A stretch of DNA of 64,000 nucleotides, from contig JADCGA010000011.1 of the NCBI GenBank assembly GCA_020249265.1, forward strand, positions 186,001-250,000, read 5' to 3'. Position 1 is the first letter of the stretch. Each line of letters begins with the position of its first letter. The notes under the pieces are model-generated. The model worked only from the letters and a program-made list of their open reading frames with translations. It was not told the origin of the DNA and searched no databases. This document shows positions 31,726 through 35,332 of the stretch, one piece after another. Position numbers and translations under genes: made by a program. Origin of the DNA: Roseomonas sp. (GTDB lineage Bacteria > Pseudomonadota > Alphaproteobacteria > Acetobacterales > Acetobacteraceae).

Positions 31726-32217
31726 TCAGAAAATTCCAGCGGCAAGCCCGGCAGCGAAAGCAGCGCCGAGTTCGTCGCAGCGTGCAAGGTCTGCCGCACC
31801 GATAATCTTTGGCGCGGCAATCGCTTCGGGGGTTTGCGCACCGGTGATGATGATCAGCGGTTCCGCAATGGGCTTCAGCCGCCAACCGGTCGCGATACGC
31901 GCAATTTGCCGCGCGGCGCCCGTGCCGTCAGACCCCGCGCAGATCATGGTCGCGTAAGGGCGGCCTTGGATCTGATCCAGCAGCGGGTAATAGCAGCGAT
32001 CGAAGAAATCCTTCATCACGCCGGCCATGCTGGCCAGGTTTTCAGGTGTGGCGAAGATATAGCCATCCGCTGCCAGCAAATCCTCCGCGCCGGTTTCAGC
32101 GGCATGCATGCCCGCGACGGCGATATTGCTTTCCCCCATGGCGCCTTCAAGCGCTGCTTGCGCCATCTGCCGCGCGCCATCCGTCATGGAATGGTGAATG
32201 ACCAGAAGTGTCTTCAT
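31726..32217 (-). CDS. Flavodoxin-fold NAD(P)H-dependent oxidoreductase, last gene of the ars operon
   Basis: A 163-residue flavodoxin-like protein. It has a phosphate-binding loop after the first strand (VIHHSMTDGARQMAQ), YIFATPENLASMAGVMKDFFDR, which is the isoalloxazine-contacting second loop, and a third in AGSDGTGAARQIARIATG. It overlaps the arsJ stop by four bases (ATGA), so is translated with it. Other ars operons can contain ArsH, a flavin-dependent NADPH reductase that oxidises trivalent organoarsenicals. This protein is shorter and not clearly ArsH. A redox role in arsenic detoxification is inferred from position only. Confidence 0.78.
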   Translation of the reverse strand: MKTLLVIHHSMTDGARQMAQAALEGAMGESNIAVAGMHAAETGAEDLLAADGYIFATPENLASMAGVMKDFFDRCYYPLLDQIQGRPYATMICAGSDGTGAARQIARIATGWRLKPIAEPLIIITGAQTPEAIAAPKIIGAADLARCDELGAAFAAGLAAGIF

Positions 32218-33428
32218 GCGGATTTAGCGTAAGCACCGCGCCCTTCGGGCAGCAATAGCGTGATGGCCCAACATAGCCCGAGCATCACCGCAGCACCCGC
32301 CAATGCGCCCATGATGCCGGCCATTTGATAGAGCAAGCCCGACAGCAGCGTGCCGGCAAAGCGCCCGGCAGCATTGGCGGCGTAGTAAAACCCCACATCC
32401 TCGGCGGCTTTTTTGGAGCCAGCATAAGCCAGGATCAGATAGGAATGGAGCGAGGAATTCACCGCAAAGGCAAAGCCAAACACCAAAAGCCCCGCCACCA
32501 GCACCAGATCAGCGCGGCCTGCGTCAAACCATAGTGCCACCATCAACGCGGGCGGCAGCAACGCTAGGCCAAGGCACCATAGCCGCGCAGCGGGCACCTC
32601 CGCGCTCAGCCCATCGGCGCTGCGTTGAATGAGTGATGGTGCTGCTGCCTGCACCAGCCCATAGCCGATGGTCCAAATGGCGAGGAAACCACCCACTGCC
32701 GCAAAGCTCCAACCCGAGGAATAGAGAAACACCGGAAGCGCCACCACAAACCAGACATCGCGTGCGCCGAAAAGCAAAACGCGCGCCGCCGCCAGCAGAT
32801 TGACACCGCGATCCCGCGCCATGAATTCGCGCATGGAGCTTGACGCCTTGGCCCTGCCCATCATCGGCGGCAGGGAGGCCACGACGCCAAGCAACACCAG
32901 CCCAAGCAGTGCGGCCATCAGCCAAAGTGCGCCCTCAAAACCAAGCGCTTCCAGCAACACGCCGCCCAGGAAAAACCCGACGCCCTTCATGGCGTTCTTG
33001 CTGCCGGTGAACCAGGCGACCCAGCGAAACAAGCGGCCAGAGGCATCGCCTGCCGTCAGCTTGATGGCGGATTTGGAGGCGGTTTTGGTGATGTCCTTCG
33101 CGATACCGCAAACGCCCTGCGCGAGCACCACCCAAGCCAGCGCCATGGCTGGCACCCAGCCTGGCGATAGCGCTGACAGCATCAGGAAACCTGCGATTTG
33201 CGCGGCCAGCCCCACCGCCAACATGCGCGCAATACCAAAGCGTGTGGCGAGCCAGCCGCCGACAAGATTGGCGCCAATCCCCGCTGCCTCATACAGCAAG
33301 AACAGGAAAGCCAGCGCAAAGGGCGAATAGCCAAGCTTGTGGAAATGCAGCAGCACCAGCATGCGCAAGGCGCCATCGGTCAGCGTAAAGCCCCAATAGG
33401 CGGCGGTGACGATGGCGTAGTTGCGCAT
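32214..33428 (-). CDS. arsJ: Organoarsenical efflux transporter ArsJ
   Basis: A 404-residue major-facilitator membrane protein with about 12 hydrophobic segments. ArsJ exports 1-arseno-3-phosphoglycerate, the unstable product made when GAPDH uses arsenate in place of phosphate, so the pair removes arsenate without reducing it. Recognisable points are the N-terminal RNYAIVTAAYWGFTLTDGALRMLVL, the GLGA-type loop between helices 2 and 3, and the ITKTASKSAIKL segment. The long open frame begins at 33530, but ATG 33428 sits one base after the GAPDH stop and starts the conserved N-terminus. Co-occurrence with the GAPDH gene is itself diagnostic. Confidence 0.92.
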   Translation of the reverse strand: MRNYAIVTAAYWGFTLTDGALRMLVLLHFHKLGYSPFALAFLFLLYEAAGIGANLVGGWLATRFGIARMLAVGLAAQIAGFLMLSALSPGWVPAMALAWVVLAQGVCGIAKDITKTASKSAIKLTAGDASGRLFRWVAWFTGSKNAMKGVGFFLGGVLLEALGFEGALWLMAALLGLVLLGVVASLPPMMGRAKASSSMREFMARDRGVNLLAAARVLLFGARDVWFVVALPVFLYSSGWSFAAVGGFLAIWTIGYGLVQAAAPSLIQRSADGLSAEVPAARLWCLGLALLPPALMVALWFDAGRADLVLVAGLLVFGFAFAVNSSLHSYLILAYAGSKKAAEDVGFYYAANAAGRFAGTLLSGLLYQMAGIMGALAGAAVMLGLCWAITLLLPEGRGAYAKSA

Positions 33429-33429
33429 C

Positions 33430-34473
33430 TCAGATGCCGCGCGCTTCCATGATGCAGGCCAGATCCACCATGCGGCAGGCATAGCCCATTTCATTGTCAT
33501 ACCAGGCATAGATTTTTGCCATGGTGCCATCTGTCACCAAAGTGGATAGCGCATCAATGATGGAACTTCGCGTATCGCGCGCGTAATCGGCAGAAACCAA
33601 AGGCCGCTCCTCATAGCCCAGAATACCGGCCAGCGAGCCTTCGGCTGCGGCGCGGAACAGCGCGTTCAATTCCTCGGCGGTTGTGGCGCGCTGCAATTCA
33701 AACACGCAATCCGTGAGGGACGCATTCAGCACCGGGGCGCGCACCGCATGGCCATTCAGCTTGCCTTTCAATTCCGGATAGATCAGCGCGATTGCCGTCG
33801 CACTGCCCGTGGTGGTGGGCTGCAAGGACAGCATGGCGGAACGCGCGCGGCGCAAATCCTTATGGGGCGCATCCACGACCACATTAGTATTGGTGGGGTC
33901 ATGGATTGTGGTAATCTGGCCATGCCTGATCCCAATCGTCTCATGCACCACTTTTACCACGGGGGCGAGGCAATTGGTGGTGCAGGATGCGGCGGTGACA
34001 ATCGGGTGCCACGCGGGATCATACAGCGCATCATTCACGCCAACCACGATATTCAGCACCGATGCTTCCTTGACCGGTGCCGCGACAATCACGCGCTTCG
34101 CCCCACGATCGAGATGCCCGCGCAGAGTGGCTTCGGTCAGGAATTTGCCGCTGCATTCCAACACCAATTCAACACCAAGATCACCCCAGGGAATCGCTGC
34201 CGGTGTCGCGTGTTCCGTGAAACCGATGCGCTTCTCACCAACGCGCAACCCATCCGCACCTTCCGCCGCGATAGGCGCACGCCAGCGGCCCTGCACGGAA
34301 TCAAAAGCGAGCAAATGCGCCGTTGCCGCCGCACCGCCCTTCACTTCATTCACATGCACAATGTCCAGCCGATTGGCGCGGCGTGGATCATCCTCACCGC
34401 GCTCCGCCGCGCCGAAAGCCGCGCGAAACGCCAGGCGGCCAATGCGGCCCATGCCATTAATGCCGACCCTCAT
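33430..34473 (-). CDS. ArsJ-associated glyceraldehyde-3-phosphate dehydrogenase
   Basis: A 347-residue GAPDH-fold enzyme. The NAD-binding start is [14 protein letters not shown], and the catalytic cysteine is Cys164 in SCTTNC (163-168). The C-terminal [16 protein letters not shown] is conserved. In arsJ operons this enzyme forms 1-arseno-3-phosphoglycerate from glyceraldehyde-3-phosphate and arsenate. Its ATG overlaps the ArsR-ArsC stop by four bases and arsJ starts one base after its own stop, so all three are coupled. Compared with the housekeeping enzyme there is an insertion after residue 20 ([14 protein letters not shown]). A housekeeping gap is presumably elsewhere. Confidence 0.93.
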
Positions 34474-35270
34474 GCGTTTGCCCCTGTCATTGGATTGCCC
34501 AAGGCTTCAACCCGTGCCTGCAGCGCCATACGATCCAGGGTGGTGAAGGGTAGGCTGATGAAGATTTCCAGCCGGCGCCGCAGCGCCGCGTAAAGTTCGT
34601 TCAATAGCGTCGCGCGTTCGGCGCCGGCGCCCGAGAATTTCGCAGGGTCCGGCAAGGGCCAGGCAGCGCTGGTGATGGTATCGCCAAAATCCGGGCAGCG
34701 CTGGCCTTCCAGCGTATCGCAAAGGGCGATGATGAAATCGAAACGCGACGCACCGGGTGCGGCGAGTTCTTCCCAGGATTTGGACCTCAGCGGCGCGACG
34801 TCATGCCCAAGCGCCTGAAGCTGCGCGAGCACTTCCGGCAGCGGCCCATCCGGCGCTGGTTCGGAACCCGCGGAATAGGCGCGAAAACGCCCAACACCGA
34901 TGCGGTTCAGAATGGCTTCCGCCATGATGGAGCGCGCGGAGTTGCGCGTACACAAGAACAGCACCTGCATGGCGCGGCCAGGCGCGGTGATGGGTGCCGT
35001 TGCCCCACCCAGAAACCCGACCAAAGCGGCGAAGGTCGCCGGGGCGCTGGCATAGAGCACCTGGCGCCCTTGGCGTTGCGGCGTAATCAGCCCGGCATCT
35101 TCCAGCGCGCGTAGATGGAAGGAAAGCGTGGAAGGCGGCACGCCTAGCGCCTCAGCAATTTCCCCCGCTGGCAGGCCCTCAGGTCCCGCGCTTTGCAGGT
35201 TCTGGATCAGGGCCAGCCGGGTGGGCTGGCCCAAGGCGGCAAAAGCCGTGGCGGCGGATTCCGTTTCCAT
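34470..35270 (-). CDS. Fused ArsR-family regulator and low-molecular-weight-phosphatase-type arsenate reductase (ArsR-ArsC)
   Basis: A 266-residue two-domain protein. Residues 5-95 form an ArsR-type winged helix with recognition helix around [18 protein letters not shown] (45-62). Residues 102-240 form a thioredoxin-coupled ArsC of the phosphatase fold, with nucleophile loop CTRNSAR at 107-113, Cys184 and Cys192 as the redox relay, and WPLPDP (204-209) holding the general acid. These are the only three cysteines, so the ArsR half lacks the usual arsenite-binding cysteines. The start ATG 35270 begins the family N-terminus; a longer open frame runs to 35357. A palindrome abuts the start codon. 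It heads the operon for GAPDH, ArsJ and the flavodoxin protein. Confidence 0.93.
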
Positions 35271-35290
35271 GTTTCCAGCATAATGGAAAC
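35271..35290. promoter_or_regulatory. Palindromic operator candidate of the ars operon
   Basis: A perfect gtttcca-N6-tggaaac inverted repeat lies immediately upstream of the arsR-arsC ATG (minus strand), within the 62-base gap to the preceding gene. Placement and symmetry fit a homodimeric ArsR-type repressor controlling its own operon. A second, less perfect tgaaa-t-tttca dyad is at 35306-35316. Confidence 0.6.
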
Positions 35291-35332
35291 GATGCGCAAA
35301 GCATGTGAAATTTTCATGACAGGGCTTAGGGC

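Follow-up and report, generated by a model that had tools for sequence, protein, structure and literature searches.

The arsRC operon and its fusion protein

The window, a stretch of 64,000 nucleotides from a Roseomonas sp. contig, carries an arsRC-gapdh-arsJ operon of which arsRC is the first gene, gapdh and arsJ following downstream and overlapping (Table 1). The start of arsJ was inferred from its profile match, and the open frame extends to 33530. GAPDH and ArsJ constitute a pathway in which arsenate is converted to 1-arseno-3-phosphoglycerate and exported unreduced, according to the accessible text of PMC5930303 and PMC9601151. Membership of the small flavodoxin-like gene in the operon is uncertain, since it occupied the same place in only four of the six loci of the window clade where it was seen; in some clade loci it is separated from arsJ by other DNA. 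The closest loci among the matches listed were 92-95 percent identical and came from four MAGs, two with the label Roseomonas, one Asaia and one Alphaproteobacteria.

Table 1. Features of the arsRC locus, in coordinates of the window
Feature	Position	Strand	Basis or remark
small flavodoxin/FMN-reductase-like protein	31726..32217	-	profile match; overlaps arsJ end
arsJ, organoarsenical efflux MFS transporter	32214..33428	-	NF033734, 513 bits, cut-off 400
ArsJ-associated glyceraldehyde-3-phosphate dehydrogenase (gapdh)	33430..34473	-	NF033735, 538 bits, cut-off 450
arsRC, ArsR-ArsC fusion repressor	34470..35270	-	266 aa; open reading frame and profile matches
codons Cys184 to Cys192, redox cysteine pair of reductase half	34695..34721	-	alignment
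codon of Cys107, P-loop nucleophile position of reductase half	34950..34952	-	alignment
ArsR half, winged-helix, cysteine-free	35007..35270	-	profile match and alignment
operator palindrome gtttcca-N6-tggaaac	35271..35290	-	exact 7+7 around N6; abuts start codon
Pho box CTGTCAT-GAAA-ATTTCAC, predicted PhoB activator site	35305..35322	-	just upstream of operator

ArsRC comprises an ArsR half (residues 1-88), an ArsC half (residues 103-236) and a conserved C-terminal tail, and profile searches placed ArsR and LMW-PTP-type ArsC domains on the single chain, ArsR first. The ArsR half matched HTH_20 over residues 13-63 (2.8e-17) and scored 69 bits against the ArsR/SmtB subfamily model NF033788 (cut-off 55). 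The ArsC half matched LMWPc (1.4e-10) and scored 44.3 bits against TIGR02691 (arsC_pI258), under the equivalog cut-off of 174.3. In common with the thioredoxin-coupled ArsC structures PDB 1jl3 and 1ljl, which we take to be ArsC of B. subtilis / pI258 type, it possesses a CX5R P-loop and a redox cysteine pair; it differs from them in being fused behind ArsR, in falling under the TIGR02691 cut-off and in its extra conserved C-terminal tail. The sequence-only reading of this locus had described an ArsR-ArsC fusion with cysteines at 107, 184 and 192 only and none in residues 1-106, and both the open reading frame and the alignment bear this out. Cys107, Arg113, Cys184 and Cys192 were invariant across 16 aligned rows; the P-loop cysteine and arginine and the second and third redox cysteines of thioredoxin-type arsenate reductases are all present in ArsRC.

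Type 1 (R773) arsenite repressors carry Cys32, Cys34 and Cys37 in the DNA-binding domain, and the type 2 site of AfArsR binds As(III) through Cys95, Cys96 and Cys102 (both as given in the accessible part of PMC11868830). Neither site was found in the window ArsRC, the ArsR half having no cysteine for the former and the alignment showing no counterpart of the latter three-cysteine site at the C-terminal helices. AfArsR (PDB 6j05) is the nearest solved ArsR chain to the window ArsR half (54 bits), which differs from it by deletion of the CC-x-C site. The missing site, CC-x6-C at positions 91, 92 and 99, is filled by cysteines in most relatives, and in one relative (L050) Cys91/92 fall opposite the CC of AfArsR. 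A misplaced start codon or a wrong frame was discounted as the cause of the cysteine-less half, as the ATG and the operator line up family-wide. The exchange of the original ArsR half for a foreign one was also discounted, matches covering only residues 100-263 being full fusions split by the linker. Across the eight window-clade loci (28 pairs) dN/dS was 0.08 both in the ArsR half (residues 1-88) and in the ArsC half (residues 103-236); judged by these ratios, the cysteine-less ArsR half is not decaying, and the purifying selection on it is strong and equals that on the ArsC half.

Operator and Pho box

A perfect gtttcca-N6-tggaaac palindrome abutting the start codon had been claimed from the sequence, and this held: the match is an exact 7+7 and its core is conserved. 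Relatives mostly retain the core with changes rather than the exact 7+7. TTC at -18 together with GAA at -5 upstream of the start was present at 62 of 92 loci with the arsenite site and at 16 of 19 without it, the window included among the latter, with a background for the pair of about 0.001 per position farther upstream. The palindrome is conserved beyond chance. A -10-like element, tatgct (pattern TATnnT), lies inside the palindrome at 35277-35282; with the operator also abutting the start codon, the repressor should therefore cover the promoter and the arsRC mRNA is probably leaderless.

The Pho box has been defined as two 7-nt repeats 4 nt apart, located upstream of the promoter (PMC4415409, accessible text), and the window promoter carries two such repeats at that spacing. 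With repeat lists that were loosened after the sequences had been inspected, 63 of 111 upstream regions scored 12 or more of 14 for the two repeats, in every case at -51 to -54; single-base shuffles reached this score in 0.6 percent. The sequence TGTCAYNNNNNYKTCAY was found at eight places in the window genome, none reversed. One is the arsRC promoter, one lies before phnC-phnD and one before pstS-pstC, the last placing taking pstS to begin within its longest frame. A further place adjoins a phosphonate HD oxygenase gene that lies on the opposite strand, and the remaining four show no obvious connection to phosphate. An association between loss of the arsenite site and the Pho box (15 of 19 versus 48 of 92, Fisher p 0.04) was rejected as independent support, since independent pairs gave no significant difference. 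Phosphate and arsenic regulation interlock in other organisms, as far as the accessible text of PMC7965956 and PMC3834237 describes. A literature search, thin on subscription papers, found no report of arsJ operons being controlled by PhoB. On the evidence of the promoter sequences the arsRC operon is probably under PhoB control.

Loss of the arsenite site and distribution of arsenite pumps

A search of 395 genomes of the order gave a match at 1e-30 in 155 of them, and 114 matched stretches were fetched from the upper part of this list; weaker matches, mostly aligned to the ArsC part alone, were left out. Excluding a short fragment (L143), 114 rows were aligned. GAPDH and ArsJ were both encoded in 106 of the 114 fetched stretches, one of which (L140) has fragments only; GAPDH alone was encoded in four and neither in four. 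The three cysteines of the CC-x6-C site were kept in 93 of the 114 aligned rows, and the reductase triad with the P-loop arginine in 112. Two rows were set aside, L140, where the N-terminal part is not ArsR, and L147, where the reductase residues are gone too. Among the 112 usable rows, 93 have the arsenite site and 19 have it lost or degraded, with the triad present in every one (112/112).

Two further loci merit description in their own right. L147:1306-2178 encodes an ArsRC paralogue devoid of the P-loop arginine, the redox cysteines and the arsenite site, in a stretch with neither gapdh nor arsJ; from its sequence it is possibly a pseudoenzyme regulator. L080:5253-7127 contains two divergent arsRC genes back to back, one of which heads gapdh-arsJ.

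The site is deleted in all eight window-clade loci fetched from the order. A second group lacking it consists of four loci of one genus, with ARH in three and a deletion in one, and seven loci are single cases: one with CC and C99 changed to R, four with a single cysteine and two with none. The forms of loss thus vary and include deletions of different lengths, AR..H, RG..T, CCR and single cysteines. A tree built without the site columns required nine changes of site state (L147 excluded), at least four of which are forced by the starred, well-supported branches alone; it is a quick tree in which 44 of 108 inner branches are open forks and three of the single site-less loci sit on long branches. 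Read on this tree, the missing cysteines are a derived loss that occurred repeatedly. The search for other fusions and the alignment of their cysteines, put forward in the sequence-only reading, turned up many more fusions, among which the cysteine-free ArsR half of the window is not unique. The linker between the halves measured 46-58 aa (median 51) in site-keeping rows versus 32-53 aa (median 39) in site-less rows, and was shorter than 46 aa in the window-clade rows and at five further loci.

A wider contig scan confirmed at least 592 loci, and the counts in this paragraph, including those for Paracoccaceae and Rhodobacter, derive from the best 80 of these; they represent related sequences and not independent events. 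The triad was present in all rows. Fusions with gapdh nearby kept the arsenite site in 32 cases and were missing it in 30, with one partial row left aside. All 24 rows with gapdh from Paracoccaceae, Rhodobacter or Paenirhodobacter were site-less with the triad kept, CC and C being replaced by VG and L or similar; 23 of them also have arsJ in the stretch and four are Paracoccus. Two Paracoccaceae fusions without gapdh possess the site, as do two Roseobacteraceae fusions with gapdh and arsJ. Where both gapdh and arsJ were absent, the site was kept in eight of nine fusions. A Bosea-labelled ArsRC (L244:5001-6150), with no site cysteines and no gapdh or arsJ nearby, is the sole exception among those nine. 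A Pho box score of at least 12 was recorded at -52 or -53 in 21 of the 24 Paracoccaceae/Rhodobacter rows and in none of eight fusions without gapdh and arsJ.

Unfused arsR was found beside arsC in eight of 13 loci translated, and all eight keep the CC. In a sample of 398 genomes from the phylum, ArsJ was present in 118, and 40 ArsJ places were fetched. Five of these 40 stretches contain ArsR-ArsC fusions, four with CC and C and one (L287) with a single cysteine. Six contain a fusion of opposite order, ArsC then ArsR, whose ArsR is of R773-like lineage (L252:10933-11742, L253:5030-5839, L257:9516-10283, L248:3878-4678, L250:10874-11773 and L260:4902-5717). All six belong to arsJ operons outside Alphaproteobacteria, and in three of the six the CVC portion of the type 1 site is gone. 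Three of 26 unfused ArsRs near arsJ have neither known kind of site: CxC is lost in two of the 17 R773-like proteins aligned, and of the other nine, eight have a CC-type or CxC site and one, the product of a further gene in L253, has neither.

Arsenite pumps were sought by Acr3 and ArsB profile searches of 80 of the 108 fetched genomes, all drafts, comprising all 19 with the site lost or degraded and 61 others. Acr3 exceeded its cut-off in 54 genomes and ArsB in eight, and one Acr3 was split over contig ends. In 21 of the 80 ArsRC genomes both a full Acr3 and an above-cut-off ArsB were missing; the fusions of these 21 are among the 112 with an intact triad, and the reductase there therefore feeds no known arsenite pump. 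Absence of a pump was rejected as an explanation for loss of the site, since three of 19 versus 18 of 61 genomes were pump-less (Fisher p 0.37).

Within the window clade Acr3 is encoded by five of eight genomes, while a full pump gene is missing from the window genome and from two relatives. In the window genome (G000, contig 7) acr3 persists as a C-terminal remnant, L032:1501-1638, between a dehydrogenase gene and an SDR gene, the same genes that in five relatives flank an intact acr3; in none of the five was an arsR seen beside it. A 604-aa transporter of the window genome matched PF02040 at 30 bits (cut-off 22.2) over the first half of the model only and TIGR00935 at 26.5 bits (cut-off 415), and was not counted as ArsB. 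No glutaredoxin-type arsenate reductase over the equivalog cut-off was detected in this genome. Its lone PF03960 match, which scored 129.5 bits against NF008107 and 27 against TIGR00014 (cut-off 106), is YffB-like and was not accepted as a Grx-type ArsC. At a threshold of 0.001 the fusion was the only match to PF01451. Given the acr3 remnant and the want of a convincing ArsB, the reductase in the window genome has no known detoxification outlet.

Candidate signals for the fused repressor

Arsenate-export operons make no arsenite themselves, yet well-characterised ArsR repressors sense arsenite, which raises the question of how such operons are induced. Chen, Galvan, Nadar, Yoshinaga and Rosen are said to have described a Paracoccus arsRC operon in 2022 and to have proposed that ArsRC fusions make the operon arsenate-responsive, with arsenite made by ArsC reportedly channelled to the arsenite site of ArsR. 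That protein reportedly resembles the window ArsRC in carrying a thioredoxin-type ArsC behind an N-terminal ArsR and in being encoded first in a gapdh-arsJ operon. Its ArsR half is reported to respond to arsenite; that of the window is without a known arsenite site. The channelling route would therefore have no known receiving site here. The title of the 2022 paper states that an ArsRC fusion enhances arsenate sensing (doi 10.1111/1462-2920.15957, as cited in the accessible text of PMC9479143), and ArsR-ArsC fusions have been noted in Actinobacteria (PMC6514093, accessible part). ArsRC fusions are thus already known; new are the clade-wide deletion and recurrent loss of the AfArsR-type site with the triad retained. 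The literature search found no paper on recurrent arsenite-site loss in ArsRC, which is not proof of novelty.

Channelling of this kind, in which the ArsR half receives arsenite from ArsC and leaves the DNA, accords with the presence of the arsenite site in most relatives (93 of 114 rows of the order), and in the 18 of 61 site-keeping genomes without arsenite pumps an internal arsenite signal would be sensible. In the window clade arsenite would have to be bound without ArsR cysteines, for example on ArsC thiols: the three-cysteine site is deleted in all eight loci, and operator and selection are kept in spite of this. With the site also replaced in all 24 Paracoccaceae/Rhodobacter/Paenirhodobacter gapdh rows from the best 80 of 592 loci, we consider channelling improbable as the explanation here. 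Still less credible is a scheme in which the ArsR half is a poorly inducible or constitutive autorepressor, real control lies with PhoB and ArsC is an ordinary detoxifying reductase working with an Acr3 encoded elsewhere. The Pho box frequency among upstream regions (63 of 111, versus 0.6 percent of shuffles, at a score of at least 12 of 14) and the Acr3 of five of the eight clade genomes fit such a scheme; the absence of a full pump gene from the window genome and two relatives, the strong purifying selection on the ArsR half and the retained operator speak against it, and site loss was not significantly tied to the Pho box once relatedness was allowed for. We regard it as very unlikely.

The ArsR half might otherwise sense arsenate, 1-arseno-3-phosphoglycerate or another pentavalent species directly and without thiols, the ArsC half being no more than an enzyme or a leftover from the ancestral fusion. 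Better binding of arsenate than of arsenite is reported for TtSmtB (PMC5658604, accessible text), and unfused cysteine-poor ArsRs lie beside gapdh-arsJ in L259 and L253. The Vibrio cholerae var operon (ArsR-VarG-VarH-ArsJ) is, in the accessible text of PMC9601151, arsenate-inducible through an unfused ArsR with a C-to-A change. It resembles the window operon in combining GAPDH/ArsJ arsenate export with an ArsR without the canonical cysteine, and differs, as far as that text describes it, in that ArsR is not fused to a reductase and the phosphatase VarH is present instead. The Vibrio ArsR and the two R773-like proteins that have lost CxC are the chief evidence that an ArsR may sense by itself, needing neither the cysteines nor a fused reductase. 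Direct sensing leaves unexplained why the triad is kept in 112 of 112 usable rows, even in pump-less genomes, and why ArsC and ArsR have been fused in both orders within arsJ operons; we judge it unlikely, though the strongest of the rival accounts.

The repeated loss of the site with the triad kept, the selection and the retained operator together imply that the arsenite site is dispensable and that the reductase half is the likeliest arsenate sensor. On balance we favour the reading that the ArsC half serves as the arsenate sensor of a repressor that controls the arsenate-export operon. The simplest reading of the comparative data would be that fusion made the reductase an arsenate-sensing domain, whereupon ArsR could dispense with its arsenite site, which then disappeared on many occasions. 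The view of the reductase as its own sensor, already advanced in the sequence-only reading, has in this respect gained comparative support (site lost repeatedly and triad not, dN/dS of about 0.08, operator kept); given the unfused cysteine-poor ArsRs of arsJ operons, other sensors than the reductase are possible. That reading is extended here by the gapdh and arsJ partners, by the recognition of the cysteine absence as a derived loss and by the Pho box. Against the ArsC half as sensor count the many fusions that keep the site, namely 93 of 112 in the order, 32 of 62 gapdh rows from the best 80 of 592 loci and four of five fusions in arsJ stretches, as well as the Acr3 of five of the eight clade genomes, where the reductase could serve detoxification.

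The sequences themselves show the gene content, the recurrent site loss beside an intact triad, the selection and the conservation of operator and Pho box. The proposed sensor would work as follows. When arsenate is absent, an ArsRC dimer would occupy the 20-bp operator over the -10 element and block arsRC-gapdh-arsJ. Arsenate entering the ArsC active site would drive the Cys107/Cys184/Cys192 cycle, and the resulting state, an arseno-adduct or a Cys184-Cys192 disulfide with loop movement, may reach the winged helix by way of the shortened linker, so releasing the DNA; the signal could take the form of bound arsenate, the arseno-adduct or the disulfide state. After derepression GAPDH would make 1-arseno-3-phosphoglycerate and ArsJ would export it. 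PhoB, acting through the Pho box, would probably raise the promoter at low phosphate, when arsenate enters through phosphate uptake.

A broader version of this proposal is that the catalytic redox state and not the product takes the fused repressor off DNA, and that such sensing arose many times and in both fusion orders, where ArsC became fused to ArsR in arsenate-export operons and the arsenite site decayed afterwards. The fusion order would then be ArsR-ArsC in Alphaproteobacteria and ArsC-ArsR in other Pseudomonadota. We offer this generalisation tentatively, as a proposition with somewhat less than an even chance of being correct.

ArsRC proteins that keep the arsenite site and others that lack it occur in nature on the same kind of operator and with the same triad, and provide a ready-made comparison between product sensing and enzyme-state sensing. 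The Pho box is a testable link from phosphate hunger to arsenate defence. If enzyme-state sensing is true, the fusion would constitute a direct arsenate biosensor module and would illustrate a simple evolutionary route from an enzyme to a one-component regulator.
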